NCBI GenBank assembly: GCA_934650095.1
Contig: CAKUFT010000001.1
Span: 1-64,000 of the forward strand
DNA: 64,000 nt
Reading direction: 5' to 3'
Source of the DNA: an uncultured Collinsella sp.
GTDB taxonomy: Bacteria > Actinomycetota > Coriobacteriia > Coriobacteriales > Coriobacteriaceae
Notes under the pieces: generated by a model
The model's database searches: none
What the model was told of the DNA's origin: nothing
What the model saw: only the letters and a program-made list of their open reading frames with translations
Program-made: the position numbers and the translations under genes
Part shown: positions 23,214-63,178 of the stretch, piece by piece
Numbering within the stretch: the stretch's first letter is position 1
Layout of the letters: every line of letters starts with the position of its first letter

Positions 23214-23250
23214 AGCATACGGCGCTGTCCAGATAACCTGTTGCGCAACA
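23214..23250 (-). promoter_or_regulatory. TGTTGCGCAACA-type promoter of the GNAT gene
   Basis: Palindrome TGTTGCGCAACA at 23239-23250, then 19 bases, then -10 TATGCT (23214-23219). The palindrome overlaps where the -35 should be; no TTGACA-like hexamer is present. First site of the block. Confidence 0.85.
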
Positions 23251-23274
23251 TTGGCAGTTGCGCCAATACCGTCG

Positions 23275-23820
23275 TTAGCGGCGGCGATGTCTCAGGGCAA
23301 CGCATACAACAACAATCGCCAGCAGTACCAAGCCCTGGAAATTGATGCGACTTATAGCGAAGCCCGAAGGAACGATAAAACTGTCGTAGAACATGTCGAG
23401 CAGGCCGATAAACACCAAAAACGCGATGAGGATCCAGAACACGCGACTCCTTAAAATGGGAGTAAACATGTCGAGCACCGAGCCGCCCGAAGAAGAGCCC
23501 TGATAGCCAATCAAATCAAACGGCTCATCCTTCTCCACCTCGTCAGCATCGCTCGAAGCGTCTGAAGACTGAGACTCCAAATCGCGACGATCCGTCCAAT
23601 ACCCGGGCACATGGTCGCGCTCGCCAAGGTACTCACCGTTTTTTACCACCGGCTCAAACAACATGGCGCTCGAAAGCTGCTCGAGTTCCTCGCGAATCAA
23701 CTGGTCAGTACGCGCGTTATGGGGCTCCTCGAGCTCGCACTCAAGCTCGTACATATGCTCCATGACCCGCTCGCAGTCCTCTTCGGACATATCGTCATCG
23801 TAATAGGAATTCCCGCTCAT
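23275..23820 (-). CDS. Hypothetical membrane protein with acidic cytoplasmic domain
   Basis: A 181-residue protein. Residues 1-115 are hydrophilic and acidic with a predicted helical region (SEEDCERVMEHMYELECE) and a serine-rich linker. Two transmembrane helices follow (VFWILIAFLVFIGLLDMF and LVLLAIVVVCVAL), ending in a basic RHRRR tail. The ATG at 23820 is preceded by GAGGGATG. The stop lies close to the palindrome serving the GNAT gene. No family is recognised. Its promoter is of the shared regulon type. Confidence 0.75.
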   Translation of the reverse strand: MSGNSYYDDDMSEEDCERVMEHMYELECELEEPHNARTDQLIREELEQLSSAMLFEPVVKNGEYLGERDHVPGYWTDRRDLESQSSDASSDADEVEKDEPFDLIGYQGSSSGGSVLDMFTPILRSRVFWILIAFLVFIGLLDMFYDSFIVPSGFAISRINFQGLVLLAIVVVCVALRHRRR

Positions 23821-23864
23821 CGATCATCCCTCATTCAAGAACCGAATCCCTTTTGGACAACTCA

Positions 23865-23901
23865 AGTGTAGAAATCCATACCAAGCAGACGTTGCGCAAC
23901 A
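23865..23901 (-). promoter_or_regulatory. TGTTGCGCAACG-type promoter of the 23275 gene
   Basis: Minus-strand TGTTGCGCAACG (23890-23901), 19 bases, then -10 TACACT (23865-23870). One end base of the palindrome differs from consensus. Confidence 0.82.
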
Positions 23902-23993
23902 TTGCCGGGAACGAAGCAGATCTGCTGACGGCGGAAACGCCCATAAACGGACAACGCGACCGAACTCAAAAGTCCGCCACTACAAACGCAAGC

Positions 23994-24054
23994 GGTCGGT
24001 CCAGAAGGCGCCGCTCCCGGGATGGCATGGGAAGCAACGCCTTCTGGACCGACC
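23994..24054. repeat. Long perfect hairpin with 17-bp arms
   Basis: GGTCGGTCCAGAAGGCG (23994-24010) pairs perfectly with CGCCTTCTGGACCGACC (24038-24054) around a 27-base loop. The GGTCGGTCC part also occurs in the spacers of the repeat array at 22207. It lies between the terminator at 24060 and the promoter at 23865. Its role is unknown. Confidence 0.6.
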
Positions 24055-24059
24055 AAAAC

Positions 24060-24091
24060 GGCGCCACGCGGGTCCGCAACCGCGTGGCGCC
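24060..24091 (-). terminator. Terminator of the WG-repeat/zinc-ribbon operon
   Basis: GGCGCCACGCGG pairs perfectly with CCGCGTGGCGCC around an 8-base loop, followed on the minus strand by TTTT. It is 17 bases beyond the stop of the 24109 gene. Confidence 0.8.
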
Positions 24092-27176: not shown

Positions 27177-27213
27177 ATCTTCGGGCACGATTCACGCATT
27201 CTGTTGCGCAACA
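27177..27213 (-). promoter_or_regulatory. TGTTGCGCAACA-type promoter of the WG-repeat operon
   Basis: Palindrome at 27202-27213, 19 bases, then -10 GAAGAT (27177-27182). The start codon lies 62 bases downstream of the palindrome edge. Confidence 0.82.
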
Positions 27214-27303: not shown

Positions 27304-29113
27304 CTACAGGCAGAAGCCCAGATAAATGTCATTACTGTTGCTGGACTTGGCCGAACCACTATAGTTTATGCCGTTGTAGGTCAGGAACTGGCCGGACTGG
27401 GAGGCATCGCAGGTACGAGTCCAGGCGGGACCGGCAGTTTTGTACCAAATTTTATATTGACTGCCTTCCGCCTCGTAAACACCAAGCGCGTCAGACTGAT
27501 TCGAGCCAAGCGACCCCTCAAGTCCATCATTACCAAAGAGCTCTACCAAGGAAGGCAACCAGAGCGAATCATCCGTCGCCGTCACCGAAGAGGCATCTGT
27601 CGTAACGCCAGCGTTGTTAGTGAGCTTGGTCACCTTGACGACTCTTTTCTTAAGATCCTTGGGCATGCTGGCAAGCACCTTCTTATTCAAACTCTTGCGA
27701 ATATCGCTGTCTTTCCAGCCGCCGGTGTTGGATCCGTCCTCGTTAATAGAATCGCTGAGAACCGGCGTTCCGCACACCATGAACGTAATGCCAGCCTTGC
27801 CCTTGCCGTCGGCGCGATCGTCATGGTTGAAGCCAACGATATAAGCCTTTACCTCGGCACCAGTAGAAAGCTTGACGGTCTTGTAGCACGCATCACCCAG
27901 CCTACCGTCTTCAGACACCAAGTGATATTTCTTGGCGATACCCGTCGCAGAATCATCATCCTGCGCCGTCGCGATCTCATCGGCAATGGTCTTAAGGTCT
28001 TTCCAGCTATAGTTGTCCACGCTGTCCTGGATGGCAACGCCATTTGACTCTGCTGCCGCATCGTCAGCCGAGGAAGCAGTCAGACAAAACATGGGCATGA
28101 CTGCGACATTCGTAATATTGCCCTGATCATTTGACCAAGTATTGTAGTTGGAGCATGCATATGCGTTGGAGTCCGAATATGCTTGGGTGCCCATTTCGGC
28201 CAAGTACCTCAAATCGGCATCAGGCATAGAAGGATCGTAATAAATGCTTCTGAAGCCCGACCCCCTCGAATTGTAGGGACCATAACCACCTTGAAGATTC
28301 AGACCCCCTTGGCCGTCATCAATGGAAGCGAAGCCATAAGGACATTCAACGTCGGTATCGCTAGCGTATCCTGTTGAGTTTGCCCAACTTAAGCCTAGAT
28401 ACTCGTAATAATCATACTGTGTACCCTCGGCATTGAGGGACTTGGCCATCCACTCGGAGTCGCGATTGACGTCAGGCATGTCCTCGGCATCGCCCAGGCA
28501 CTCGGTCGCCGAAGGTGCCCACATCTTAACGTCTTCCGAGGTCGCCTCGCTGGTCTTGGCGCCATCGAGATAGACCGTCTTCTTAGAAATGGTAGCCAAA
28601 CGATCCTTGATCGAACTGGGAAAATAGTCGAAACCGTCAGCACCAGAGGCGTACATCGGACTGCCCGCGTACAATCCATCGGTAAATTGCCAGGTAAGTC
28701 CCGCTTTGCCCGAGCCGTCAGCTAAATCGTCGTGATACAGGCCAACAATCGTAACTGTGCTCTCGCAGTCGCGGAGCGCCATGCGCTTGGTCTGGCTGCC
28801 GTCGAGCGTGCCGTCCTTGTCGCAGAGCTTGTACTCCTTGGCGATCTTGAGGGCCGCCTTGCGGCTACCAGACTTGGTCATGGCGTCGGAGATCTTGGCG
28901 AGCTCGGCCCAGGAATATTTATCGACCTTCTTCTTGACCTTGACGCCCTTCACCGATCCGCCCTTGGACTTCTTGGACGACTTCTTGGAGGCGGCGTACG
29001 CCGGGGTCGGAGCCACGAGCTCCACGGCGCTACCCGCAACGAAGGAGCTGACCGTGAGCGCGATCGCTGCTACCAGTAACCCCCCCCCTGAAACATTTCT
29101 TGATGTTTCGCAT
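27304..29113 (-). CDS. Secreted DUF6273-like protein, frame broken by a G9 tract (possible phase variation)
   Basis: Paralogue of the protein encoded at 30795-32717. The native start is ATG at 29113 with AGAAAGGA upstream, giving MRNIKKCFRGG as in the paralogue. A run of nine G (29080-29088, read on the minus strand) follows, where the paralogue has eight, so the signal peptide is out of frame with the rest. After the tract the frame is open for about 590 residues: signal helix, AYAASKKSSKKSKGG basic linker, then two copies of a YSWxxL...IAKxYxL...GKAGxTW domain with the W(K/D)DSDIRKSLN and LWLPS motifs of DUF6273-type proteins. A longer frame running in through the operator is unlikely to be used. 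It could be a phase-off allele or a sequencing slip. Confidence 0.8.
29080..29088 (-). repeat. Homopolymer tract of nine G (minus strand) in the signal-peptide region
   Basis: Nine consecutive C on the plus strand; the equivalent tract of the paralogue (32685-32692) has eight. A change of one base restores the frame between the start at 29113 and the body of the gene, as in contingency loci. Confidence 0.85.
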
Positions 29114-29149: not shown

Positions 29150-29186
29150 ACCTTAAGTGGGGTCAAGCGTTTTCTGTTGCGCAACA
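29150..29186 (-). promoter_or_regulatory. TGTTGCGCAACA-type promoter of the 27304 gene
   Basis: Palindrome at 29175-29186, 19 bases, then -10 TAAGGT (29150-29155). The leader is nearly identical to that of the paralogue at 32717 from the -10 to the start codon, so the promoter was duplicated with the gene. Confidence 0.85.
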
Positions 29187-30679: not shown

Positions 30680-30716
30680 ATCGTCCCGAATAAATCAAAT
30701 GATTCGTTATGCATCA
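30680..30716 (-). promoter_or_regulatory. Degenerate member of the TGTTGCGCAACA promoter family
   Basis: Minus-strand TGATGCATAACG (30705-30716) keeps 8 of 12 consensus bases, followed by exactly 19 bases and -10 GACGAT (30680-30685), with the start 61 bases from the palindrome edge. Conserved spacing supports it despite the weak match. Confidence 0.55.
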
Positions 30717-30794: not shown

Positions 30795-32717
30795 CTACAG
30801 GCAGAAGCCGGGGAAAACTGCATATGCCTCGTCGGCATCAACGCCCGAATAGATATCAAAACCGTTATAGGCAATAAAAGCTCCGGATTGAGAAGCATCG
30901 CACGAACGCGTCCACGCAGTGGGGTAATCATTATCGTAACGATAGAGGAGCTTGACCAATTGATACAACGTGTAAGATTTGCCCTCTGCCTCGTAAACAG
31001 GCACTTGGTCAGGCTGCAGCCTAATGAGCCCGGTCGTCTCGTCCTCAATGTCGGTTGTTCCAAATATCTCCATAGCAGACGGCAGCCACAGAGCATCCTC
31101 AGTCTCAGTCACCGACGAAACATCGGTCGTTACGCCGGAGTTATTGGTGAGCTTCTTGACCTTAACGATACTGTTCTTAAGGTCTTTGGGCAGTTTTTTA
31201 ATAAACTGCTTGTTGAGCGTCTTGCGAAGGTCGCTGTCCTTCCAGCCGCCAGAATTGGCGCCATCCTTGTTCATCGAGGCCTCGAACGGGGCAACGTCGT
31301 CAAACAGGAACGTGATGCCCGCTTTGCCCTTGCCATCGGCGCGATCGTCGCAGCCGTAATCGACAATATATGCCTTAGCTGTCACGCCGTTCTTGAGCTC
31401 CACCGTCTTATAGCTGGAAGCCGTGGGGGCGCCGTCTTCATCTCCCAGATGGTATTTGGCAGCAACGGCATACGGATCGCCACCATTATTCGCCGCGTCG
31501 GCGATCTCGTCGGCGATAGCCTTGAGGTCGCTCCAGCTGTAATTGTCGACGCTGTCCTGAATAGTGACACCGTTGGACTCCGCAGCTGCAGAATCCTCGT
31601 CGGCTGCAGAAGTAAGGCAGAACAGGGGCTGGGTCACCTTGTCGCCAACCGTGGCCAAAGCTTCATAGCGGCTGGGACTAGCAATTTTCGATTGTCCCTG
31701 CGCCACGGCATAGTTATTGAAATTTTCATCCGGGGTTTTCGGATTCAAGTACAGCGACCTATAGACAGTCACGCATTGATCATCGTCCGACTTACTATCC
31801 GAGACTATGGTGGGTGTAGCGCCTTCTTTTACTAGGGGCATTTCCATACCATTAGCACCTTTATCGACAGCATCCCCAATGTAATCACAGGTATAAAAAT
31901 ATGATGTTGGATAATCCGAGAATGCACCCGATTGATCATCCCAGCTTAGACCCTGGTCCTTGAATAAATCGTACTGCGTGCCCTCAGCATTCAGTGCATT
32001 TGCCATCCACTCAGTATCGCGATTTAAGCCTGCCATGTCCTTGGCATCGCCCAGAACCTCAGCAGCCGAAGGCGCCCACAACTTAGCGTCGGAAGAAACC
32101 GCCTCACCGTTTTTGACCGAATCGACGGATGCCGTTTTGACTGAAACCGTTGCCAAACGGCTGGTGAGATCGGATGGCAGCCAAGAATCGGCGGCAAGAC
32201 CCTGCATCGTCGTATCCATGAGCTTAAAATTATCGACACCGCGGTTACCATTTTCCGCCATATAGGGCGCGTTGCACATGCCATCGACAAACTGCCACGT
32301 AATGCCGGCCTTGCCAGATCCGTCGGACAGGTCGTCATGGTAGAAGCCGACGATGCGGACCGAGGTCTTACCCGTAGACAGCGCCACACTCTTGGTCTGG
32401 GTGCCGTCAAGCTTGCCCTTCTTGTCGCAGAGCTTGTACTCCTTGGCGATCTTGAGCGCCGCCTTGCGGCTGCCGGACTTGGTCATGGCGTCGGAGATCT
32501 TCGCGAGCTCGGCCCAGGAATACTTGTCGACCTTCTTCTGGACCTTGACGCCCTTAACCGATCCGCCCTTGGACTTCTTGGACGACTTCTTGGAGGCGGC
32601 GTACGCCGGGGTGGGCGCGACGACAGCGGCCACGCTGCCCACAACTAGGGAACTAATCGAGAGCGCAAGCGCTCCGACCAACAACCCCCCCCTGAAACAT
32701 TTCTTGATGTTTCGCAT
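30795..32717 (-). CDS. Secreted DUF6273-like protein (intact paralogue)
   Basis: A 640-residue exported protein beginning MRNIKKCFRGG with a signal peptide ending at AYAASKK, followed by a Lys/Ser-rich basic linker. Two homologous domains follow, about residues 50-380 and 405-640. Each has YSWxxLxxI near its start, GKAGITW or GKAGITF, GWKDSDLRKTLN and a LWLPS motif. The second domain closely resembles the external domain of the kinase at 60654. The eight-G tract (32685-32692) keeps the signal peptide in frame. The basic linker could bind teichoic acids or DNA, but this is a guess. It is preceded by the shared promoter. Confidence 0.85.
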   Translation of the reverse strand: MRNIKKCFRGGLLVGALALSISSLVVGSVAAVVAPTPAYAASKKSSKKSKGGSVKGVKVQKKVDKYSWAELAKISDAMTKSGSRKAALKIAKEYKLCDKKGKLDGTQTKSVALSTGKTSVRIVGFYHDDLSDGSGKAGITWQFVDGMCNAPYMAENGNRGVDNFKLMDTTMQGLAADSWLPSDLTSRLATVSVKTASVDSVKNGEAVSSDAKLWAPSAAEVLGDAKDMAGLNRDTEWMANALNAEGTQYDLFKDQGLSWDDQSGAFSDYPTSYFYTCDYIGDAVDKGANGMEMPLVKEGATPTIVSDSKSDDDQCVTVYRSLYLNPKTPDENFNNYAVAQGQSKIASPSRYEALATVGDKVTQPLFCLTSAADEDSAAAESNGVTIQDSVDNYSWSDLKAIADEIADAANNGGDPYAVAAKYHLGDEDGAPTASSYKTVELKNGVTAKAYIVDYGCDDRADGKGKAGITFLFDDVAPFEASMNKDGANSGGWKDSDLRKTLNKQFIKKLPKDLKNSIVKVKKLTNNSGVTTDVSSVTETEDALWLPSAMEIFGTTDIEDETTGLIRLQPDQVPVYEAEGKSYTLYQLVKLLYRYDNDYPTAWTRSCDASQSGAFIAYNGFDIYSGVDADEAYAVFPGFCL

Positions 32718-32753: not shown

Positions 32754-32790
32754 ACCCTAAGCGGTGTTGGTCAAATTCTGTTGCGCAACA
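32754..32790 (-). promoter_or_regulatory. TGTTGCGCAACA-type promoter of the 30795 gene
   Basis: Palindrome at 32779-32790, 19 bases, then -10 TAGGGT (32754-32759). The start lies 62 bases from the palindrome edge. Confidence 0.85.
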
Positions 32791-33843: not shown

Positions 33844-33905
33844 AGGATACCCACGCCATCGCGCTCAATGTTGCGCAACATAACCAGAGAATCGAAGCTT
33901 ATCTT
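33844..33905. promoter_or_regulatory. Shared divergent TGTTGCGCAACA promoter
   Basis: A single palindrome at 33869-33880 has -10 hexamers 19 bases away on both sides: TATCCT (33844-33849, minus strand) and TATCTT (33900-33905, plus strand). Start codons lie 61-62 bases away on each side. This shows that the palindrome acts in both orientations. Confidence 0.88.
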
Positions 33906-34799: not shown

Positions 34800-34836
34800 T
34801 GTTGCGCAACGTTCTCGCCCATCGGGGCGGTAGCGT
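34800..34836 (+). promoter_or_regulatory. TGTTGCGCAACG-type promoter of the 34907 gene
   Basis: Palindrome at 34800-34811, 19 bases, then -10 TAGCGT (34831-34836). The leader to the start codon is longer than in other members (96 bases). Confidence 0.82.
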
Positions 34837-37593: not shown

Positions 37594-37630
37594 TGTTGCG
37601 CAACAGAATGTAACGCAGGCGGCCTAGTAT
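37594..37630 (+). promoter_or_regulatory. TGTTGCGCAACA-type promoter of the 37710 gene
   Basis: Palindrome at 37594-37605, 19 bases, then -10 TAGTAT (37625-37630). It probably drives 37710, the TrkA/RyR-like gene and the TIR gene together, because the later gaps are short. Confidence 0.85.
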
Positions 37631-45846: not shown

Positions 45847-45865
45847 GTGTTCTGCCTTTACCTAA

Positions 45866-47146: not shown

Positions 47147-47160
47147 GATTTAATTTCCCC

Positions 47161-50100: not shown

Positions 50101-50649
50101 AACAATAAACTGCTGGCCATCATGCGAGGTAATCGTCACATCTTCTGGAACGAAGGGAGATGCGGGCACGGAGGAAGCGGCGCGAACGTTCCCACGAGAA
50201 ACAGTCACCGTTTCGCCATTAGGATTTGCCGCCGCACCGCGTGGGACCGTTATCGTTTGACCGTCAGAAGCGACAGATCGCGGCACCGTTACGGTCTCGC
50301 CCGCCACGGACGTCACCGGCCGGGAAACCGTGACCGTCTCGCCGACAGCGGGAGCAGCCATCGGCCTTACAACCGTAACGGTCTCGCCACCAGTCGCAGA
50401 AACCGGATGACTTACCGTCACCGTCTCGCCTGCCGACGGGGCGTCGCCGCGGCGGATGGTCACCGTTTCGCCGGACACCGGAGCAGCACCTCGGCGCACC
50501 GTCACGGTCTCACCCGGCACAGGAGCCTGATTGCCGTGATACACGGTGACCGTTTCACCGTTTACGGGTACGTCCCCACGGCGGACCGTCACGGTTTCAT
50601 CATTGCCGGTGCCGCCATCTCGGTGTACCGTTATCGTCTCATCAGACAT
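47161..50649 (-). CDS. Membrane Ser/Thr protein kinase with eleven N-terminal ETVTV repeats
   Basis: An 1162-residue kinase. Residues 1-150 hold eleven tandem repeats of about 14 residues with core (G/D)ETVTVxRG. The kinase domain (about 175-440) has a loop GHGGQSTVF, Lys in CVAKVF, the catalytic motif HRDVKPSNVYLY and DYG in place of DFG (GDYGSA). A long helical region follows, then two transmembrane clusters (about 930-990 and 1080-1160). The repeats place many threonines in a uniform context, likely targets for autophosphorylation and for the FHA protein of the operon; this is inference. The ATG at 50649 lies 2 bases after the PP2C stop codon, so kinase and phosphatase are co-translated. 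Confidence 0.9.
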   Translation of the reverse strand: MSDETITVHRDGGTGNDETVTVRRGDVPVNGETVTVYHGNQAPVPGETVTVRRGAAPVSGETVTIRRGDAPSAGETVTVSHPVSATGGETVTVVRPMAAPAVGETVTVSRPVTSVAGETVTVPRSVASDGQTITVPRGAAANPNGETVTVSRGNVRAASSVPASPFVPEDVTITSHDGQQFIVHLGQVVGHGGQSTVFAAERVDDGLACVAKVFRPLIEKDRTEYEKTVRAVMSLNGRPVSETHLLPIFAYLHQGLSATEVGAIAPQLWDIAITPKATCLSDRPRSKHMVKSRVIPELSQAINLLHTEFGIVHRDVKPSNVYLYDKQIALGDYGSARSLSGIDNRTTKTETRSNGYTPGHGRMVDPRNDWYSFGYTIWTLYEGNVHPLYERLKDDTFFEFQEAGQPAEFTHPDDATLGNLLQGLTFELANKRFGYEEIKDWIADPDHFYRQLPTFDFKSDHAPYEFVGRLYTDPVSLARGLASHWDEAKQRMQQWQLERQMRKWNENDLETKIHQITEAKAKGGEKPNYDFNLACVIYEMSGGKIISWRGEDVSLGAGKNDLPARIATMADTDIDRYAVKSGLDGTESMGVLPSGFLSYVLSRQGEHDESVASIAENIRAIEELAVVSDDPHFAACLLKGFLTFDELVTHAAAQQEIKRLIGNPRAFFATCSTFRAVDEFFLLFAGDVSMDAIIKARGDAQSGGSIDVDVVLDFMDRVVDNKAPVRAFYRKYGNMAGWIWLSEHTALYEALPGSAGESAIVNLRGLSPSAQASVASLMQAGSNIRIEGSKLRADMEVTPVPYVNGWQTRDVLLTRPLTLNALFCAEARGETVPRGYVAELLAGGADEQLLDGIGIRLLAHMNLMPSASYSQFLEDERNEADGALEGAIQRDTQDYSMTEGIADTAARIEAVKKEQSRVLRWTCVVAVIYFVAILCARGSFGQFIVMCGSFAPLAVLFLVAAFVGIFGFLALNLLRSFSAVDRVQSLDGDLAANADLLESRLIQLVDFDSRTGATAEKLSMVGVDEDLPIAQGADFSFGSEGKAFYADPEVMDRLGRLAIRLLLIASAVISASGFMGTVFIDGDVIAKIEVVSAIAVDALICIYVLGDDEHPGSAASILSWSWIWLGPLVIAFLLWGVVTVLQAFGMVGAIIAVVFLIGCFIK
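50175..50640 (-). repeat. Tandem 42-45-bp repeats coding ETVTV units
   Basis: Eleven imperfect in-frame repeats at the 5' end of the kinase gene, each with a GGTGAGACGGTGACGGT-like core. Such an array can change length by recombination. Confidence 0.8.
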
Positions 50650-50651
50650 CT

Positions 50652-51419
50652 TTATTCCCCTATCTCAATCACGATCAGCGTCGCGTCATCCGTCGAACCG
50701 TTCATGCGGGCCTCGGCATACAGCTCCTCGCACAGCTGCGCACAGGTCGAATCGCTCGCAAGCATCTGCTGCAGGCGCGCAAGGTCAATCTCCCCATCGA
50801 TGCCATCAGAGCAGATTAAGTAGCGATCGCCCGGAAACAACGTGGTCGTATTGATCTCTAAGTTTCGTCCGCCTTGATTAAGACCGACCGCCAGCTCAAT
50901 GCAATGCGAGACCGACTCATCGCTGTACTCAAAACCAACGCCGCCCAGACGGGATTCGGGCGTATGGTCGTAGCTCAATACCGCAAGTACGCCATCGCGC
51001 AAGCGATACACACGCGAATCGCCAGCATTAAAGATTGCGGCAGACCCATCATGTGCCACCATAAGCCCGGCAACCGTGGATGCGGCAACGGGCAGGCCAT
51101 AACGGGCCGCATAGGACTCAACATCGTTCTCAGCGCGCTCGCCCGCCATACGCAAACGATCCTGCAGGACATCAATCGAATCGGCTCCAAAAACCTGAGT
51201 CGTCTGCGCAAACGCCTGAGCAGCGAGCGTCGAGGCTGCCGCTCCGTGCCCGCCTTCGCTCACGCCGTCAAAGACTGCCATGCAGCCCATCTCGCGCTCG
51301 CAATCGCCTACCAGGCCATAGCAAAGGACGTTACCGTCAAGAAGCAAACGGTCCTCGTTGACGGGGTGATTGGTTCCCGCTTGAGTTTTTGCTGCAGCGA
51401 TAAACTTCGTCATCGCCAA
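50652..51419 (-). CDS. PP2C-family protein phosphatase
   Basis: A 255-residue Ser/Thr phosphatase. Metal-site motifs are in order: VNEDRLL (Asp), FDGVSEGGHGAAAS (DGxxxGGHG), NAGDSRVYRLRDG, CSDGIDGEID and DDATLIVIEIGE. All key Asp residues appear present. It probably reverses the kinase encoded next. Its ATG at 51419 overlaps the end of the AAA+ ATPase gene by 10 bases, and its stop is 2 bases before the kinase start, so all three are tightly coupled. It is soluble. Confidence 0.92.
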   Translation of the reverse strand: MAMTKFIAAAKTQAGTNHPVNEDRLLLDGNVLCYGLVGDCEREMGCMAVFDGVSEGGHGAAASTLAAQAFAQTTQVFGADSIDVLQDRLRMAGERAENDVESYAARYGLPVAASTVAGLMVAHDGSAAIFNAGDSRVYRLRDGVLAVLSYDHTPESRLGGVGFEYSDESVSHCIELAVGLNQGGRNLEINTTTLFPGDRYLICSDGIDGEIDLARLQQMLASDSTCAQLCEELYAEARMNGSTDDATLIVIEIGE

Positions 51420-53365
51420 TCGCCTCCCATCGATCCGGGCACGAGCTCAAATGCGATATGCGCATCGTCGCCCTCGCCCTGCGGCACGGCGCGTGCCACC
51501 ATGCCGGGACGACCGCGCCACTCGGCGCGGTGTTCAAACAGAAAATCGGAAAGCCCGTTAAGGTAGCCGCTCTCCACCAAGTTGCCAATGCCGCGGCCGC
51601 CCTTAGCCTTGACAGCATCCGTCATGGCAATGGAGTGCAGCAGCTCGCGGGCAGCGTCGGTCGCCTCAACCGTAATATCAGGCTGTGCCTTATGCACGTT
51701 GCGGTTAACGGCATCGATCTTGGAATTAAGGATCTGAAGTGCCACAGCATCGTCGATAAAGTTAAAGATCACCACGTTGTCGCCGATACGGCCCAAGAAC
51801 TCGGGCTTAAACTCGCGATCCATCTCGGTGCGCACGCGCTCGCAAATCTCGTTATAGGGCGTGTTGGGCGCGATGGTATTACGTACTTCGTTGCCCTGGG
51901 CATCGATCTCAATCTTGGAAAAGCCGATGTTGCTCGTAAAGAAGATGACCGTCTCAGAGAAGTACACGGTATTACCCTGGCCATCGGTCAGGCGGCCATC
52001 TTCGAGGATCTGCAGGAACTTGTCCATAATGCTGGGCGCGGCCTTCTCGATCTCGTCGAAAAGAACTACCGAGAACGGATTGGCCTTGACCGCATTGGTC
52101 AGCTGACCGCCCTCGGCATAGCCCACGTATCCCGGAGGAGCACCAAAGAGCTTTTGGTCGGAGTTTTCGGCACCGTACTCGGACATATCAAAACGCAGCA
52201 TGCTGCGCTCATCGCCAAAGAGGAGCTCCGTAATGGCCTTAACGATCTCGGTCTTACCGGTACCGGTGGGGCCGCTCAAAAACAGCACACCCTTGGGTTT
52301 AGAGCCAGACGAATGGGTGGCGCCCGAAAGGCCCATAACGGAGCGCTTGAGCACGGTGACGGCCTTCTCAACGGCCTCGTCCTGACCCTTCACGCGGCGC
52401 TTGATCTTTGCCTCGGGATCCTCTTCGAGCTTCTCGAACATCTGCTGCCATTTGTTCTCGCGAAAGCCGTACTTATACACGTCGACGAGCTTGGGAAGGA
52501 TGGCCTCGATGGAAGCCTCGGGGTTTTGCATGTCGCGCTGGTACATACGCTGCAACCCCTCGAGCTCCTTAACGCTCATGCCGTCGGTGGTATCGATAAA
52601 GCGACGCACCGCACGGTCATCGGAATCGGACAGCGCCTCACCAAAGCCAAACTTGCTTTGGATGTAGGCCTCGCGCATGTCACGATCGGGATGCGGCAGC
52701 GTGATAGTGCGCAGGAAGGGATTTTCCTCGATAAACCACACAGGCAGGTTGCGCACGTTATCCGTTACCAGAATGAGCGTGTTGACGGCCGTACGGTTAA
52801 TGAGGCGCGCCTTGCTAGCACCAAGGTACAGATTAAGGAAAAACTGCGTCTCGTCGGGCATAAGACCGGTCGATGAGGCAAGCAGACGCGACGCCATGTT
52901 GACGATCACACAAAGCGGCTTGGCCTCGGTGCCGCCGTCGGGATTGTCGTTGTATTTCAGGCGCAACATTGAGCGGATGACCTCGCCGTATGAGGGCAGG
53001 CTCGACTGCTCGGTGGCATACGCCTGGCGGCCATCGGCGATGCAGGCGTTCGCCTCCATCATGCGATCGTCGCTCTTAGAAGCCTCGTCGTGCGCCAGCG
53101 ACACCAGACGTTTGCAATCGACGTTGCCCATGCTGCTCGAGAACAGTTGGATGGGGTCAAAATATGCCACGTTGTACTCAACTGAGCCATTGGCGTCTTC
53201 GAAAAGACCGCGCACAACCTCGGCGAGCTCCGAGAACTGAAGGCCGCCGTCAACCACATCGGGATACTTGTCATTCACGTTGCCCTCAAGGATAAAGAGG
53301 CTCTTCACCCCTTTAAAGTTGAGCATCTCGCGCTGCCAGGATTGACGCTCGAAATCAGTTGCCAT
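51410..53365 (-). CDS. ClpB/ClpV-like AAA+ ATPase
   Basis: A 651-residue AAA+ protein. The C-terminal half (residues 320-590) matches the second ATPase domain of ClpA/ClpB: Walker A LSGPTGTGKTE, then DMSEYGAENSDQKLFGAPPG followed by YVGYAEGGQLT, Walker B VVLFDEIEKA, sensor 1 FFTSNIGF and an arginine finger in EFLGRIGDN. The N-terminal half is a degenerate AAA-like module without a clear P-loop, and there is no Clp N-domain. This suggests a specialised unfoldase or remodeller rather than housekeeping ClpB. It lies 3 bases after the radical SAM gene and overlaps the PP2C gene. Confidence 0.88.
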   Translation of the reverse strand: MATDFERQSWQREMLNFKGVKSLFILEGNVNDKYPDVVDGGLQFSELAEVVRGLFEDANGSVEYNVAYFDPIQLFSSSMGNVDCKRLVSLAHDEASKSDDRMMEANACIADGRQAYATEQSSLPSYGEVIRSMLRLKYNDNPDGGTEAKPLCVIVNMASRLLASSTGLMPDETQFFLNLYLGASKARLINRTAVNTLILVTDNVRNLPVWFIEENPFLRTITLPHPDRDMREAYIQSKFGFGEALSDSDDRAVRRFIDTTDGMSVKELEGLQRMYQRDMQNPEASIEAILPKLVDVYKYGFRENKWQQMFEKLEEDPEAKIKRRVKGQDEAVEKAVTVLKRSVMGLSGATHSSGSKPKGVLFLSGPTGTGKTEIVKAITELLFGDERSMLRFDMSEYGAENSDQKLFGAPPGYVGYAEGGQLTNAVKANPFSVVLFDEIEKAAPSIMDKFLQILEDGRLTDGQGNTVYFSETVIFFTSNIGFSKIEIDAQGNEVRNTIAPNTPYNEICERVRTEMDREFKPEFLGRIGDNVVIFNFIDDAVALQILNSKIDAVNRNVHKAQPDITVEATDAARELLHSIAMTDAVKAKGGRGIGNLVESGYLNGLSDFLFEHRAEWRGRPGMVARAVPQGEGDDAHIAFELVPGSMGGDWR

Positions 53366-53368
53366 GTG

Positions 53369-53965
53369 TTATACCTCCTTGGCGGGATATTCGTGGTGGT
53401 ATCGGTTAGCAATGCCGACGGTGTTAACAATGCCGTCTTGGACAAAGTTCTGAAGCTGACGAGGCTGCTGAAGATACTGGTCGTAGTCATCGTGTGGACG
53501 GTCGCTCAGATAGATCACGCGCTGGTTAGTCGAGCCGCGCAGCGCGCAGTCGGGCACGTTGAGCTCATCTACGTACGGACCGTCAATCAGCACATCGATG
53601 AGGGGCTTGAGCGTCTCCCACACGTCTGCGCCGATCGCTCGCGGCAGTTCTTCGAGCGTAAAGCCGGTGTAAACGAGAATGTCATCGTAAGCACCGCGGA
53701 TTGTTGCCAGCAGCTTCGCGAGCTCTGATGCCTGCTCGAGCGGATCTCCACCCGAAACCGTCAGTCGATGCACGCCATGTTCGTGCGCCGTATCGAGCAA
53801 CATCTGCGCAAGCTCACCAACATCGACATCCTGCTCGGGCAACTGCATCCTAAGCTCGGGCGAGATGCATCCGGCGCAGCGCTTAGAACAACCGCTAGTC
53901 CAGATTGCGATGCGCTCGCCTGGCCCCAGGGAAACGACAGGCGCGAACATCTGGCTAACGAACAT
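53369..53965 (-). CDS. Small radical SAM protein, NrdG/activase-like
   Basis: A 198-residue protein with the radical SAM cluster motif CSKRCAGC (CxxxCxxC) in IAIWTSGCSKRCAGCI, and the GGDP SAM-binding motif in LTVSGGDPLEQASEL. Length and motifs resemble activases of anaerobic ribonucleotide reductase and other glycyl-radical enzymes, but no such partner enzyme is near. The ATG at 53965 was chosen because it overlaps the FHA gene end by 11 bases and has GAGGAT upstream; ATG at 53950 is possible. Its position between FHA and AAA+ genes suggests a role in activating or modifying a protein of this system. Confidence 0.85.
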   Translation of the reverse strand: MFVSQMFAPVVSLGPGERIAIWTSGCSKRCAGCISPELRMQLPEQDVDVGELAQMLLDTAHEHGVHRLTVSGGDPLEQASELAKLLATIRGAYDDILVYTGFTLEELPRAIGADVWETLKPLIDVLIDGPYVDELNVPDCALRGSTNQRVIYLSDRPHDDYDQYLQQPRQLQNFVQDGIVNTVGIANRYHHEYPAKEV

Positions 53966-55034
53966 CTGAATAATCCTCGCCGGGGTCGAGCGTACGATAT
54001 ACGGCAGACGTGCGCGCGAGCGAACAGCCACACTCTTCACAGCCATCCCCGACCTTTGCGCGCTCATCGGCAACAAGGTGCAGACGGCCACACTCGGGAC
54101 ACTCGACAAACCAGCCCTCAATGCCGGCAGACGGACTGGCAGCTGGCATGGCAGGTGCCGCAGCGGACGCGGCGGTCGCAGGCTGCGGCGCGACCGCCGC
54201 CTGAGCCTGCGTGGCCTGCATCGCAGGAGGCTCCTCCACGGCGACCATCAAACGCAGTTGGGCGAACTCCCCGGATGCAGCCGGGATTAGCAGCACATCA
54301 CCGGTATGGATCTGCTGGGACACGCCGGGAGCCAAATTAAGAATCTGGCCGCCGCGCATAAGAGCCGTTCCATTATTGGAACCCTCGTCGGCAACCAACC
54401 ACGCGCCCTGTTCAAAGCGAACGCTGGCATGCTGCCGAGATATTGCAAAATTCGACGCCATACTGGGAAACGCGTTGCGCCCAAGCACGGTCATACCCGT
54501 GAGACGCAGCTGCTCACCCATAGCTGGATCGGCAAGCGTAAGCACAGGAACCGCAGGAGTAGCTGCAGCATTCGCCATGGGTTGCGGCGCGGGCTGTGGC
54601 ATTGGCGCGGGCGTCGGCTGTGGCACGGCAACCGGAGCGGGCTGCGGAACGGGCATGGGGGTAGGCTGCGGCATCGACATGGCCGCGGGCTGCCGCGCGG
54701 GCGCAGGCATCGGTTGTGGGGTGGACATCGGTTGTGGCACGTGCGCCGGCTGCGGCATAGGCGCGGGTGCTGGCTGCGGCGCGGGCACGGGAACAGACTG
54801 ATACACCTGCTGGGACGCAGACTGTTGAACCTGTGGTGCACCACCCATCGAAGAAGTCGCAGGATAGACGGCGGGCGCTGGACGTTCACCGCTTGGTGCA
54901 GCGAAGTCTTGCACCGGAGCAGCAGGCGTCGACGGCACAGGTGCTACGCCGGCGGGACGCGGAGCGCCGCATTCCTCGCACATATCGCGCTCGTCATCAT
55001 TATCAAAACCGCATTCTGGGCATTCCCATGTCAT
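53955..55034 (-). CDS. FHA domain protein with zinc fingers at both ends
   Basis: A 359-residue adaptor. The N-terminus has a RanBP2-like zinc finger (WECPECGFDNDDERDMCEEC). Residues 35-165 are Pro/Ala/Gln-rich and probably disordered. The FHA domain spans about 175-265: MTVLGRNAF, then SRQHASVRF and DEGSNNGTALM, the three phosphothreonine-binding elements. A second zinc ribbon follows (FVECPECGRLHL, then CEECGCSL). It should bind phosphothreonine peptides, such as the kinase's own ETVTV repeats (inferred). It begins 3 bases after the coiled-coil gene and overlaps the radical SAM gene. Confidence 0.9.
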   Translation of the reverse strand: MTWECPECGFDNDDERDMCEECGAPRPAGVAPVPSTPAAPVQDFAAPSGERPAPAVYPATSSMGGAPQVQQSASQQVYQSVPVPAPQPAPAPMPQPAHVPQPMSTPQPMPAPARQPAAMSMPQPTPMPVPQPAPVAVPQPTPAPMPQPAPQPMANAAATPAVPVLTLADPAMGEQLRLTGMTVLGRNAFPSMASNFAISRQHASVRFEQGAWLVADEGSNNGTALMRGGQILNLAPGVSQQIHTGDVLLIPAASGEFAQLRLMVAVEEPPAMQATQAQAAVAPQPATAASAAAPAMPAASPSAGIEGWFVECPECGRLHLVADERAKVGDGCEECGCSLARTSAVYRTLDPGEDYSDVR

Positions 55035-55037
55035 GGT

Positions 55038-56570
55038 TTACCTCATTTCCCTTTGCTTGAGCTGACTTGCTTGACGGCGATTACGCAGGCGACGCTCCGC
55101 ATCTGCGGAAGGCGTGGGCGGCACGTAATCGTGCGGATGGATCTCGACGGCGGCAGCAGGATTCGCGGCCTGCGTGGTCAATCCTGCACCCTCGGCCGGA
55201 ACGGTTACGCCATAGGCTTTAAGATCCTCTTCGAACTGTTTGTAGAAGTCGCAGAACTCAATCTGGTCCCTATAGACCTTCTCGACAGTCGCTTGATCCT
55301 GCGGCTTCATGTCCTTGATGATGGTCGGATTATCAGGATCCTCAGAAAACTCCTCGGGGTTGGCTGCGACAACGCGGATGATGAGTCGATCTCTTTTCGT
55401 GCTGCGCAAAAGGGCGATGGCCTTGTTCTGCTTGGTGTCAAACATCAATCGCCAGGGCTTTCCCGAACCCTCCATAACGGCATAGCGTGTAACGTTAATA
55501 CCGCGAGCAGCCATGACCTCGTTGATAGAACGCTCGATATAGTCGTCTTTCATAGCATTGGCAAGGGCAGCCTCCGCTTCATCGTTTGCAGCATAGACAT
55601 CTTCGATCTCGTGCAATTGCTTAAGTGGCAGACTCTTTCCGTAACGGTTGTTGGCGCGTTCGATGCGCGCACGATACTCTTCATAGACTCGGTGCCGTTC
55701 GCTCGATTCATACGTAGCGTTTTTTACTACGTATTCAAAATCATTCATCATCTTCATCGCCGCTAGGCGATCATCGACGCGCGAATTAGGCCCAAGTGCA
55801 TCAAAAGCGGCGCGAACGCTCTCAAACTTTGCAGAGATACGGTTACGAAGGGAAATATCGAGCGCTTCGTCCTGCATAAGCGGCGTAACACGTCCCGCCC
55901 AAGTCTCAAACGCGCGAGCCGCTTCTTCGAGCGACCCTTCCTCTTGTTTAGTTGTTGATTCGGTAAGGTAACGGAGTGCCTTCTTCAGGTCCACTCCGCC
56001 GCCGGGACCAACAACATAATTCGTAATTTCCGCGACATGCTGAGCGCGAAGCCGCTCAGCAGTCTGGATGGCCTCAAGTTGAGCTTGCGACTGCTGAACG
56101 AACTGCTCTCTATGCGCTTCCGAAACCGTTGTGGGCAGCAGGGCGCTAATCTCCCCGAGCAGAGCCGGAATCTTAGCGCGAACCGTTTCGGCATAACGCA
56201 TGTTTACCGCTTGCATTCCACTGGGCATATTGCCCAATGCCTCTTGGGAAAAAGCCTCGATACGAGCGTTGATCAACCGATCAAAATATGCCGAAACCGA
56301 ACCATCGGTGTCTTCAATCTTAGAAAGTGCTTTGGCTTTTATCCCAGCTAGAGAGCTCTTATATGACTGAATGGCCGCTTCAACGCGCTCCCGCTCCAAG
56401 GCTATGGCCGTCTCAACGCGCTCCCGCTCCAAGGCCCTGGCTGCCTCAGCGCGCTCCCGCTCCCGGTCTTCGCTCCGCTGTGCCCAAACAAACTCATCCT
56501 GCTCTCGCGTGGTCATCTTGTTCCACTGTTCCCGCGTGATTCCATATGATGCGCTGAATGAATAGCTCAT
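55038..56570 (-). CDS. Coiled-coil protein, first gene of the phospho-signalling operon
   Basis: A 510-residue cytoplasmic protein. Residues 30-75 contain three imperfect repeats of ALERERVExAI type, highly charged and helical, coded by a 33-bp DNA repeat (about 56380-56465). Long helical segments follow to about residue 300, then a globular domain (KPWRLMFDTKQNKAIALLRS, residues about 385-405) and a basic C-terminus. No family is recognised. The start at 56570 (MSYSFSASYG) is preceded by CAGGGGAACG and lies 60 bases from the palindrome. As first gene it shares stoichiometry with the FHA protein. Confidence 0.75.
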   Translation of the reverse strand: MSYSFSASYGITREQWNKMTTREQDEFVWAQRSEDRERERAEAARALERERVETAIALERERVEAAIQSYKSSLAGIKAKALSKIEDTDGSVSAYFDRLINARIEAFSQEALGNMPSGMQAVNMRYAETVRAKIPALLGEISALLPTTVSEAHREQFVQQSQAQLEAIQTAERLRAQHVAEITNYVVGPGGGVDLKKALRYLTESTTKQEEGSLEEAARAFETWAGRVTPLMQDEALDISLRNRISAKFESVRAAFDALGPNSRVDDRLAAMKMMNDFEYVVKNATYESSERHRVYEEYRARIERANNRYGKSLPLKQLHEIEDVYAANDEAEAALANAMKDDYIERSINEVMAARGINVTRYAVMEGSGKPWRLMFDTKQNKAIALLRSTKRDRLIIRVVAANPEEFSEDPDNPTIIKDMKPQDQATVEKVYRDQIEFCDFYKQFEEDLKAYGVTVPAEGAGLTTQAANPAAAVEIHPHDYVPPTPSADAERRLRNRRQASQLKQREMR

Positions 56571-56604: not shown

Positions 56605-56641
56605 TTTCTACCGCCGCTTTGCGCGATTCTGTTGCGCAACA
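56605..56641 (-). promoter_or_regulatory. TGTTGCGCAACA-type promoter of the 14-kb operon
   Basis: Palindrome at 56630-56641, 19 bases, then -10 TAGAAA (56605-56610). It lies back to back with the next site, 35 bases away, which drives the kinase gene on the other strand. Confidence 0.83.
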
Positions 56642-56664: not shown

Positions 56665-56701
56665 TGTTGCGCAACAGAAGACGGCACTCAACGCATATCC
56701 T
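56665..56701 (+). promoter_or_regulatory. TGTTGCGCAACA-type promoter of the 56731 kinase
   Basis: Palindrome at 56665-56676, 19 bases, then -10 TATCCT (56696-56701). Here two palindromes serve a divergent gene pair, whereas at 33869 one palindrome serves both. Confidence 0.87.
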
Positions 56702-59400: not shown

Positions 59401-59437
59401 ATAATGTCTCGATAGTTATGCAAAGCGTTGCGCAACA
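59401..59437 (-). promoter_or_regulatory. TGTTGCGCAACG-type promoter of the 58095 gene
   Basis: Minus-strand TGTTGCGCAACG (59426-59437), 19 bases, then -10 CATTAT (59401-59406). On the plus strand, towards the FHA gene at 59520, the hexamer at the same distance is TTGAGC, a poor -10, so regulation of that gene is less clear. Confidence 0.72.
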
Positions 59438-60516: not shown

Positions 60517-60565
60517 CTTTCGTCTTCTACCTTCTGCGTCGTAACCGACAATACTCAACGGCATA

Positions 60566-60616
60566 CGTCGGCAGTGCGGCTATCATGGTGCTTTACCAAT
60601 AGCCGCACTGCCGACG
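60566..60616 (+). promoter_or_regulatory. Long perfect hairpin in the leader of the 60654 kinase gene
   Basis: CGTCGGCAGTGCGGCTAT (60566-60583) pairs perfectly with ATAGCCGCACTGCCGACG (60599-60616) around a 15-base loop, ending 38 bases before the start codon. There is no T-run, so it may be a regulator site, a translation control element or a mobile repeat. No TGTTGCGCAACA site was found for this gene. Confidence 0.5.
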
Positions 60617-60653
60617 CATACGCGCGGCAACCCATGCCAGACAAAGGAACGCC

Positions 60654-62738
60654 ATGGATACTACCGATAGCGCCTATGGCGACAAACTCATCCGTCTCGA
60701 CACGTTCGATACCGCCGTGGCAGTCGACCCCAGTGCCGAGGACGACGCCAAGCGCCGGTTTATGACGCTTATTCTTCAGACGGCATACCGCGACGGCGGC
60801 AATATCGGGCACGTGCTGCGCGCGACCAACACGAGCGGCGAGGTCTTTGCCGTCAAGCTGCTCAAGGACAACACCATCCTTTCCGGCCAGACGTCCGATC
60901 GCTCTGCCGAGCAAGCGGCTGCGCACCTGGCCAGCACCGCCGCGCTGTTCGAGGAGTACCGTCATCTGTGTACCGTCTCGCACCTGCGCGGATTTCCGCG
61001 CGTCTATGGCTACGGATCGTGCGAGGATGACCCGCTCATCCTCATGGAGTGGGTCGAGGGTACCTCGCTCAAGCAGGCGCTGCCCCTGCTTCCGCACGAC
61101 GCCTCGGGCGGGCTGACCACCCAGATGGTCGCCGCCGTCGGAAACGCCGTGCTACGCGCGCTCTTGATGACCCAAGGCCTCGTGAATCCGGTCGTCCATC
61201 GCGACCTGTCGCCTGCCAATATCATGTTCCGCACCACCAGCCGAACGCTCGAGCAGCAGATCGCCGATTGCTCCTTTGACCCCTGCCTCATCGACATGGG
61301 CTCCGCGACCATGGCACTCGGCGACGACACGATCACCCGACGTGCCGACATTTGGCGCTTTGCCACACCCGCATATGCCGCGCCCGAGATGCTCACACAG
61401 GATATCGAAGGCATCGCGGCCCTTCGCCGCTCGCCCGCGATCGACGTCTATGCGCTTTCGAGCATTCTGTACCAGCTCTACAGCGGTCGTAAGCCGTTCG
61501 ACATCGAGTCGACGGGTGCCGCGGCAACCGGCTCGTTCTACCTCATAAAGACCAAGACCAAGCCGGCACCGCTCAAGCCGCGCTGCGAGGACGATGAAGC
61601 GCTCGTCCAGATCATCATGAAAGGCATCTCGGTCGAACAGGGCGATCGCCCTACCGAGCAGCAGATGCTCGAGGTGCTCTCGGCATACCTCCCCGCTGCA
61701 GAATCTGAGGGCCGCGAGGGCGCAGGAGACGAGGCCGCAATTGATATCGATTCTGGCACGCACCTTAAGGTCGACGTCGCCGGCGAGCGCGCGCGAGAGA
61801 TCCTGGAGCAGGCCCGGCACGATGCCATGACCCGCCGCCGCTTTATTATCGGTGGCGTCGTTGCAGCCGTTGCGGGGCTCAGCGTCATTGGGGCGGCGAC
61901 CCATGGCTTTGGCATCCCCGACTACCTGGACGGCATCCGCGGTTCGCTTGACGACTACACTTGGGATCAGCTGCAGGAGATTTCGCTCAAGATTAAGGCC
62001 GCCGAGACCCGTAGCGAGGCACGCGAGATTGCCAAGCGCTACCACCTGCTCGATGCCGATGGGCATATCCCCTATCCGTGTACCAAGCGCGTGAAACTCA
62101 CCAACGGGCTGGAGGTCGGCGCGCAGCTTGTGGGCATCCGTCACGATGAGCTTCTGGACGGGACGGGCAAGGCCGGGCTGACGTTTATGTTCGATGCGGG
62201 TATTGCCGAGCGCAACGCTGCGGCTGAACCGCCGAGCGCCGGCTGGGCAGATTGCGAGCTGCGGGAATGGCTCGACAGCGACGGCCTTAAGCTGCTGCCC
62301 AACGAGTTGCGCGCGCTTATTAAGGCCGTCAAGAAGACCTCGAACAACGTGGGCGTCGCCAGAAGCGCTTCGTGTCTGAGTGAGCTGCCCGCGACGCTCT
62401 GGCTGCCCGCCATGGTCGAGCTGTGCGGCGTGCAGCCGCCCGATTCGTTTGCCGAGGACTATCACTACCTGGCAGACATCTACAACGGCGAAGGCAAGGA
62501 GTATCAGCTGTTCCACGAGCTTAAGGTGAGCCCATATTCCACCAACTCGACCATGGTGCGCCAGTGGAAGGGCAAGGACACCTGCTGGTGGGAGCGCACG
62601 GTGAGTCCCGACACGTCGGAGGAAAAGGGCACGGTCTATATCAACCGTGTCGGCGACGACGGCGACGTGTTTATGTACGCCACGCCCGCGAGCAAACCGG
62701 ACAAGCGGACCTGCGTGATCCCCGGGTTCTGTATTTAG
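60654..62738 (+). CDS. Receptor-type Ser/Thr kinase with DUF6273-like external domain
   Basis: A 694-residue protein. The kinase domain (about 30-340) has Lys in FAVKLL, catalytic HRDLSPANIMF, DMG in place of DFG (IDMGSA) and AAPEM. A linker leads to a transmembrane helix (about 400-420, after RRRFIIGG). The external part (about 430-694) is homologous to the secreted proteins at 27304 and 30795: YTWDQLQEISLKI, IAKRYHLLDADG, GKAGLTFMF, CELREWLDSDG and LWLPAMVELCG. This suggests a sensor that shares a ligand, or self-associates, with those secreted proteins. The ATG at 60654 follows AAAGGAAC. It is a paralogue of the 56731 kinase. Confidence 0.9.
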   Translation: MDTTDSAYGDKLIRLDTFDTAVAVDPSAEDDAKRRFMTLILQTAYRDGGNIGHVLRATNTSGEVFAVKLLKDNTILSGQTSDRSAEQAAAHLASTAALFEEYRHLCTVSHLRGFPRVYGYGSCEDDPLILMEWVEGTSLKQALPLLPHDASGGLTTQMVAAVGNAVLRALLMTQGLVNPVVHRDLSPANIMFRTTSRTLEQQIADCSFDPCLIDMGSATMALGDDTITRRADIWRFATPAYAAPEMLTQDIEGIAALRRSPAIDVYALSSILYQLYSGRKPFDIESTGAAATGSFYLIKTKTKPAPLKPRCEDDEALVQIIMKGISVEQGDRPTEQQMLEVLSAYLPAAESEGREGAGDEAAIDIDSGTHLKVDVAGERAREILEQARHDAMTRRRFIIGGVVAAVAGLSVIGAATHGFGIPDYLDGIRGSLDDYTWDQLQEISLKIKAAETRSEAREIAKRYHLLDADGHIPYPCTKRVKLTNGLEVGAQLVGIRHDELLDGTGKAGLTFMFDAGIAERNAAAEPPSAGWADCELREWLDSDGLKLLPNELRALIKAVKKTSNNVGVARSASCLSELPATLWLPAMVELCGVQPPDSFAEDYHYLADIYNGEGKEYQLFHELKVSPYSTNSTMVRQWKGKDTCWWERTVSPDTSEEKGTVYINRVGDDGDVFMYATPASKPDKRTCVIPGFCI

Positions 62739-62780
62739 AGGCGGAGGGCTGCTGCGACGGGGCTCCCGGCCCCGGCGTTT

Positions 62781-63078
62781 ATCTCAATCTGTAACATCTA
62801 GGACCCAAATACCGGCCTAACTGTTACAGATTGAGATGTTGAGCAGGCGGCGGGACGGTTTGTCTCAATCTGTAACATCTACTCGGCAAAAACGGGTCTA
62901 GTTGTTACAGAACGAGACAAACCCCAACCCCGCGAGACAACGTCTCAATCTGTAACAGTAAGAGGCCAAGAACCTCTCCAGATGTTACAGATTGAGACAT
63001 TTGGCAACCGCCGAATTGTTTGTCTCGATTTGTAACAGTTAGAGGCCATTTTCCCTGCTAGATGTTACAGAACGAGAC
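62781..63078. repeat. Second array of four palindromic repeat units, period 79-81 bp
   Basis: Units at 62781-62837, 62861-62919, 62942-62999 and 63021-63078, with arms close to TCTCAATCTGTAACA and TGTTACAGATTGAGA and variable centres. Start-to-start distances are 80, 81 and 79. It matches the array at 22207-22508 in arm sequence, unit number and period. It lies between the kinase stop and the promoter of the last gene. Confidence 0.92.
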
Positions 63079-63141
63079 GCTAGCTTGCCGAGGGCTTCGC
63101 CTCATAAATGTGACTCAAATGTGTCGATATTTCCTCGCCAA

Positions 63142-63178
63142 TGTTGCGCAACAGGAGCCCTTTCAAAGGTCTTAACGT
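63142..63178 (+). promoter_or_regulatory. TGTTGCGCAACA-type promoter of the 63220 gene
   Basis: Palindrome at 63142-63153, 19 bases, then -10 TAACGT (63173-63178). Last copy in the window, directly after the second repeat array. Confidence 0.86.

Follow-up and report, generated by a model that had tools for sequence, protein, structure and literature searches.

A 12-bp palindrome at the -35 position marks a putatively activator-dependent promoter type dispersed through Collinsella and other Coriobacteriales

Bacteria of the genus Collinsella are common in the gut. We analyzed the first 64,000 nucleotides (hereafter the window) of contig CAKUFT010000001.1 from an uncultured Collinsella sp. The window holds a set of promoters with one architecture: the 12-bp palindrome TGTTGCGCAACA or a close variant, followed after 19 bases by a -10-like hexamer. 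We consider it likely that the palindrome is the operator of one putative homodimeric activator of the Coriobacteriales. A dimer of this kind would sit over the -35 region, from about -43 to -32, and bring the ordinary sigma-A RNA polymerase to promoters with a -10 and without a -35. Its regulon would be dispersed and would contain zinc-ribbon membrane proteins, Ser/Thr kinases, FHA proteins, secreted proteins and conflict systems, namely bacteriophage exclusion (BREX) and GAP1-N2 GTPase/Hsp70. In several targets, the length of a poly-G tract at the coding start might set the reading frame and act as a second control layer.

The window contained nine exact copies of the palindrome and three copies with one mismatch, in which one end base is changed. 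When up to two mismatches were allowed, there were 15 matches (nine exact), all at or beyond position 23,239, compared with a mean of 3.57 and a maximum of 11 in 100 shuffles. The composite motif, palindrome-N19-TANNNT with at most one mismatch, occurred 12 times in the window and never in 100 shuffles. An earlier reading made from the sequence only had seen no copy in the first 22 kb, and we likewise found none there at up to two mismatches. At up to three mismatches the first 22 kb had 12 matches and the remainder 30, which is the background density. All 12 good palindromes were intergenic, and at most 11.7% of the region is intergenic, a rough figure and rather too high, because the gene list was kept as produced and includes one closed-frame gene and a radical-SAM-like gene with approximate ends. 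The 12 palindromes serve 13 promoters, the one at 33869 being used in both directions. The site at 59426 has C in place of T in its hexamer besides its palindrome mismatch and thus falls outside the 12 composite matches. According to the coordinates, the start codon follows the palindrome at 54-69 bases in 10 of the 13 promoters and at 86-104 bases in three. All 14 hexamers listed by the sequence-only reading were recovered, and 13 of its 14 promoters are solid, with no more than one palindrome mismatch. The fourteenth, at 30705, is weak: its TGATGCATAACG has four mismatches, the hexamer is GACGAT, and what speaks for it is its position about 61 bases before the start codon of a zinc-ribbon gene.

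The 19-base spacing, which had been described as exact, proved strict. In the window, [TGC]A...T was present at +19 in 11 of 12 palindromes, whereas the other offsets from 8 to 31 had a mean of 0.5 (maximum 2). For the genus, sites were taken regardless of their hexamer among the matches listed, those less than 70 bases from a locus end were dropped, and 78 distinct contexts were reduced to 46 independent groups. Among these, 28 had [TGC]A...T at +19, compared with a mean of 3.0 (maximum 9) at the other 23 offsets. For the stricter TA...T, the corresponding figures were 17 of 46 and a mean of 1.0 (maximum 4). Flanks and spacers were unrelated between the 46 contexts. In the mechanism proposed here, the strict spacing would reflect direct contact between activator and polymerase. 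It is unlikely, in our view, that the protein is instead a repressor which lies over the -35 and so blocks sigma-A promoters, keeping the genes off until it leaves. Many repressors bind palindromic operators over the -35, and repression would suit genes for costly surface and defence proteins. However, neither the exact 19-base phasing nor the missing -35 consensus is something that a repressor requires, and mere covering would still work after a shift of several bases.

The promoter anatomy was examined in 83 de-duplicated promoters, which had been selected for the exact palindrome plus [TGC]A...T. The base preceding the palindrome was A or T in 95% of them and the base after it was A or G in 82%. 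The spacer had no other strong preference, no TTGACA-like -35 hexamer and no extended -10, in agreement with the earlier statement that a -35 consensus is absent. The operator spans 12 bp with weak flanks. With the hexamer taken as the -10, the palindrome would occupy -43 to -32 with its centre near -37.5. In a one-mismatch scan of 21 genomes (orthologues included), 28 palindrome mismatches were present among the matches listed: 14 at the last base, nearest the -10, none at the first base, and the remainder at base 7 (7), base 6 (5), base 3 (1) and base 11 (1). The three one-mismatch sites of the window all change the last base. Because mismatches number 14 versus 0 at the two end bases, the far half-site seems to be needed even at one-directional promoters, and its conservation fits a dimer rather than a sigma -35 element. 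One site could also serve two diverging genes, and such divergent use of one palindrome was found at 33869 in the window and at loci L010 and L111 elsewhere. The promoters are kept at orthologues. Locus L001, in a metagenome-assembled genome of an uncultured Collinsella, was the only locus returned for the 423-aa protein of the window and has a relative at 88% identity; three window promoters are conserved there, with palindrome and hexamer kept while flanking bases change. Promoters are also kept with different flanks at L004 (genome G001).

The sequence-only reading had offered an activator or an unusual sigma-factor contact. The activator logic is supported, and the second option fared less well. 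An extracytoplasmic function (ECF)-like sigma might read the near half of the palindrome (CAAC) as its -35 and TANNNT as its -10, the palindrome then arising from use in two directions; AAC-type -35 words are known for ECF sigmas. Five of nine motif-free Collinsella had only two Sigma70_r2 matches, and the eight motif-bearing ones searched had 3-5, a weak correlation. The other four motif-free genomes, however, had 4-5 matches, and there was one match in G131 (one exact composite) and two in G049 (two exact composites). ECF promoters are not known to need any sequence upstream of the -35 and carry an ECF-type -10. Here the far half is also kept at promoters that work in one direction only (14 end-base mismatches near, 0 far), and TANNNT is a -10 of the sigma-A type. 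Since the far half-site lies beyond the reach of sigma region 4 and is no less conserved than the near one, and since sigma-factor counts follow the motif weakly, we judge this explanation to be quite improbable.

The promoter set had also been described as a 40-kb regulon. The shared architecture and the coherent targets stood, but the confinement to 40 kb did not, because Collinsella and other Coriobacteriales have such sites at scattered places in their genomes, which makes any regulon a dispersed one. The exact palindrome was present in 34 of 43 Collinsella genomes, with 101 copies versus two of the reversed word. A scan of related genomes bore the promoter type out: of 297 Coriobacteriales genomes, 44 had the exact composite and none the reversed control, and a set of 396 genomes taken from the phylum gave five with the composite, four of them Collinsella. 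With one mismatch allowed, there were 119 composite matches versus one control match in 21 genomes, all of which had been chosen because they contain the exact composite. The 40 kb of the window is a dense island of this dispersed site set. That the sites are a dispersed repeat or a chance palindrome without regulatory role is scarcely credible: some do lie in a repeated tRNA-Asp context, but flanks and spacers are unrelated in the 46 independent contexts, all 12 window sites are intergenic, the reversed control is nearly absent, and the spacing statistics already contradict this explanation.

The target set comprised 141 distinct promoters with at most one mismatch, 126 of them with an open frame behind, in 96 gene clusters (window included). 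It was compared with 436 further gene clusters from the loci that carry these promoters (excluding the window); the loci had been fetched because they hold sites, and classes were assigned by simple sequence rules. Zinc-ribbon motifs were found in 33/96 target clusters versus 18/436 neighbours (P = 4e-15). A hydrophobic stretch at the N terminus, with no zinc ribbon, was found in 33/96 targets versus 72/436 neighbours (P = 2e-4). Zinc ribbons, kinases, FHA, SPFH plus zinc ribbon, the CAP domain, a restriction-type helicase and BrxA were confirmed among the targets by Pfam, in keeping with the coherent group of zinc-ribbon, kinase, FHA and secreted proteins described before. BREX operons stood behind the composite promoter at L120, L133, L160 and L161, loci that were fetched for their motif and do not amount to a survey; L160 and L161 are near-identical. 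Profiles matched BrxA and BrxC in L120 and BrxA in L160, and the BREX assignment of L133 and L161 was made by eye. A weak case is the WXG100 gene at L036, with a one-end-variant site and GATACT about 200 bases before its start. The BREX operons and a GAP1-N2 operon among the targets elsewhere, as well as the poly-G tracts in target genes, had been missed by the sequence-only reading.

Sense tracts of at least seven G were found within 300 bases behind a site in nine independent cases. Only 0.48 were expected if all 32 tracts (these nine and 23 elsewhere, some of them at contig ends) were spread evenly. Three further tracts lay behind sites in antisense. This excess suggests phase variation. 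In a large secreted-type CAP-domain protein of Collinsella, G9 was open in six of seven loci and G10 was closed in two of two (nine script-matched loci: L003, L014, L028, L041, L045, L054, L058, L061 and L080). The tract length of this gene thus differs between relatives and shifts the frame, as phase variation would have it. A G9 run also lies at the start of brxA, the head of the BREX operons, behind the composite promoter at three distinct Coriobacteriales loci (L120, L133 and L160). In the window, a G9 tract (29080..29088, minus strand) follows just after the ATG at 29113 of a DUF6273 gene; read from that ATG, the frame is closed after 27 codons, and there is a second in-frame start farther upstream. 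A G8 tract (32685..32692, minus strand) just after the ATG of its DUF6273 paralogue leaves the frame open for 640 codons. These two paralogous secreted-type genes are likely a phase-variable pair, and a homopolymer assembly error is possible for single tract cases. Taken over the targets, the tracts at the coding start suggest that several of them are phase variable. In the parts of the literature consulted on the poly-G loci of Campylobacter, Neisseria and Helicobacter, coding G homopolymers likewise change the frame through length differences; the difference is that the tracts here are tied to one promoter type and are found at brxA in Coriobacteriales. A literature search on Collinsella and phase variation returned nothing on this subject.

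Several observations weigh against one activator acting at all of these sites. Among the 46 independent Collinsella palindromes, 18 had no [TGC]A...T at +19, and nine of the 43 Collinsella genomes had no exact palindrome. The most repeated Collinsella site (12 contexts) lies beside tRNA-Asp and upstream of an Rrf2 gene, and its +19 hexamer faces the tRNA. At L038 (2769-3012) and its relatives, the site is between tRNA-Asp and Rrf2, TATACT at +19 points to the tRNA gene, and there is an ordinary-looking promoter on the other side of the site. A site in G003 (L222) lies inside the 3' end of a GAP1 reading frame, so the sites are not always intergenic. The sequence alone is also compatible with a repressor over the -35, and the sigma-factor counts of the five motif-free genomes belong here too. 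Finally, neither the site neighbourhoods nor the phyletic patterns revealed the regulator.

None was recognised in the window, as the sequence-only reading had said. Near the sites, no recurrent helix-turn-helix (HTH) gene was found among 1126 called genes by home-made regular expressions, which are crude and may overlook families. HTH-like proteins of various types occurred singly near sites at L065, L085, L121, L139 and L140, and there were also LytTR proteins. Phyletic tests covered LytTR, WYL, Sigma70_r2, GerE, LacI and Crp over 25-28 chosen genomes and one Rrf2 query over 297 genomes, and none of these families tracked cleanly with the motif. These genomes are partly fragmentary and of uncertain completeness, so absences are soft. 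A family missing from a motif-rich genome is disfavoured as the regulator. LuxR/GerE was present in 25 of 26 genomes and gave no match in G265, which has two exact and five one-mismatch composites. LacI was present in 20 of 25, with none in the motif-positive G223, G260, G276, G049 and G186. Crp/FNR had weak HTH_Crp_2 matches in 25 of 25, with none at E <1e-8 in seven motif-positive genomes (G003, G008, G013, G027, G223, G287 and G049). These three families are therefore disfavoured. All 28 genomes searched, whether they have the motif or lack it, had WYL proteins, in 1-4 copies and mostly 2, and copy number did not follow the motif. An Rrf2 gene has a conserved site nearby in many Collinsella. 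One Collinsella Rrf2 query matched 283 of 297 genomes, with no match at E 1e-10 in the motif-positive G049 and G033, and Rrf2 as an autoregulated master regulator was dropped because of its absence at this threshold from G049.

LytTR was found in 28 of 28 genomes and was the only recurring DNA-binding class recognised among the targets. Composite sites precede two different LytTR genes (L124 at 3001; L169 at 3026, one mismatch), so LytTR may be a target or the regulator. An AgrA-like LytTR beside an apparent kinase (by eye) was found in six motif-bearing Collinsella (G001, G003, G008, G013, G027 and G033). No match of that score class was seen in nine motif-free Collinsella; the protein is missing from G223 and has no qualifying site nearby.

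Class II CRP/FNR sites are centred near -41.5 and have gapped half-sites, and MerR sites lie between -35 and -10. Both resemble the present case in having an activator site that adjoins the -10 with fixed spacing; here, however, the centre is near -37.5 and there is no gap. According to parts of a preprint (PMC12340889), the WYL activator DriD of Caulobacter binds a pseudo-palindrome lying across the -35 and always equally far from a weak -10, at promoters that have a very poor -35 and use the housekeeping sigma. The operator over the -35 position, the fixed distance to the -10 and the poor -35 all recur here. In contrast, DriD as portrayed there has a 20-bp pseudo-palindrome and DNA-damage targets, whereas our operator is gapless, measures 12-14 bp and has other targets, and WYL copy number here does not vary with the motif. 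We judge by analogy that the promoter probably works like that of DriD, the nearest solved case, which does not imply kinship with DriD. In mycobacteria, the PafBC heterodimer reads a -26 motif by sigma-A adaptation, as far as excerpts of PMC11804915 tell. Like the putative activator, it belongs to Actinomycetota and delivers sigma-A polymerase to promoters that lack the housekeeping -35 contact, but it uses a -26 motif and a heterodimer instead of a palindrome at -43 to -32. In open-licence print, no mention of the palindrome as a bacterial regulatory motif was found, and the literature searched held little on gene regulation in Coriobacteriales, including Collinsella promoters and regulators, and nothing on this motif. 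The promoter principle appears to be of a known kind, and the code, its spread over the order, the link to conflict systems and the tract layer appear to be new.

The island also looks like a swap site. Its left edge is a GNAT acetyltransferase gene (22629..23177, minus strand; Pfam) and its right edge a gene for a protein kinase with DUF6273 (60654..62738, plus strand), for which no palindrome site of its own was found in the window. In G003, on one contig of 2.3 Mb, the same edge genes (88% and 93% identical, respectively) enclose a different cassette (L221-L223) with GAP1-N2/GAP1-M, two DO-GTPase proteins, two Hsp70, GrpE and zinc-ribbon proteins. Profile matches to PF20013 and PF20014 were just above the cut-off, and PF19993 was above it. 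By these matches, the targets also include a predicted GAP1-N2 GTPase/Hsp70 conflict system. Its cassette sits behind the same promoter type with the same TAGAAA hexamer as the window counterpart, an operon with kinase, PP2C, ClpB-like AAA and FHA proteins, whose AAA protein is unrelated to the G003 Hsp70. Shared edge genes around unrelated cassettes (22629-62738 in the window) point to a swap site, and in these two Collinsella genomes it looks like one for conflict-type cassettes under one promoter type. HSP70/GrpE is given as the second theme of GAP1-N2 GTPase-centric conflict systems in a section of PMC7159879, and the G003 island agrees with it in having GAP1-N2/GAP1-M, two DO-GTPases, two Hsp70 and GrpE. 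It differs in that the main text of that paper contains neither "Coriobacter-" nor "Collinsella", and its HSP70/GrpE section has no shared promoter.

A clean promoter code offers a handle for finding the regulator and predicts targets genome by genome. It also connects genes without assigned function with BREX and GAP1-N2 systems. Should the poly-G tracts switch, gut populations would be mixtures of surface and defence states governed by one regulator. It is conceivable, and we put it forward only tentatively, that one Coriobacteriales master activator, from a family so far without links to genes of this kind, turns on a joint surface-and-immunity programme through the -35-replacing palindrome, and that poly-G tracts in the targets diversify individual cells. 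The conflict systems would then be under a two-layer control across the whole regulon, an on/off switch plus a lottery.

Along the island, the first promoter (23214..23250, minus strand; palindrome 23239-23250, TATGCT) drives the GNAT gene 22629-23177. The next (23865..23901, minus; TGTTGCGCAACG, TACACT), conserved in L001, drives a small acidic protein (23275-23820, minus) with a membrane segment by eye and no Pfam match. The promoter at 27177..27213 (minus; exact palindrome, GAAGAT) drives a WG-repeat secreted-type protein (25827-27140, minus; Pfam) and probably also a zinc-ribbon protein (24109-25824, minus). At 29150..29186 (minus; exact, TAAGGT) lies the promoter of the DUF6273 gene with ATG at 29113. 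The weak candidate spans 30680..30716 (minus) before zinc-ribbon gene 29301-30644, and the DUF6273 paralogue 30795-32717 is driven from 32754..32790 (minus; exact, TAGGGT). The divergent pair shares one exact palindrome: 33844..33880 (minus; TATCCT) drives a zinc-ribbon protein with three Zn_Ribbon_1 stretches (32914-33807), and 33869..33905 (plus; TATCTT) drives another zinc-ribbon protein (33941-34639). Two plus-strand promoters conserved in L001 follow, 34800..34836 (TGTTGCGCAACG, TAGCGT) before 34907-37519 (870 aa) and 37594..37630 (exact, TAGTAT) before 37710-38981 (423 aa), both products being without Pfam match. A degenerate palindrome, TGTTGCGTAGCA, with two mismatches lies at 37550-37561, 44 bases before the exact one at 37594; it has no hexamer at +19 and is possibly a second binding site.

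Two promoters conserved in G001 (L004) stand back to back. The one at 56605..56641 (minus; exact, TAGAAA) drives 11 same-strand genes (42586..56570, minus), probably one operon, which encode a kinase, PP2C, a ClpB-like AAA protein, a radical-SAM-like protein (by eye) and an FHA protein with a sub-threshold RanBP zinc finger; the others are without assignment. The one at 56665..56701 (plus; exact, TATCCT) drives a protein kinase (56731-57978). The promoter at 59401..59437 (minus; TGTTGCGCAACG, CATTAT) drives a zinc-ribbon protein (58095-59339), and that at 63142..63178 (plus; exact, TAACGT) drives a gene that starts at 63220 and runs off the window; its relatives (L034) look secreted by eye. 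Type VII secretion was considered for the operon 42586-56570 and dropped, since only sub-threshold NCBIfam scores were obtained. In plasmid records, tblastn with the 1162-aa kinase returned only distant kinases (four records). Between the 423-aa gene and the operon, 39042-42492 (plus strand) encodes a 799-aa protein of membrane type that has no Pfam match and, behind it, a protein with a TIR domain and DUF4357, for which PADLOC gave matches to candidate defence families.

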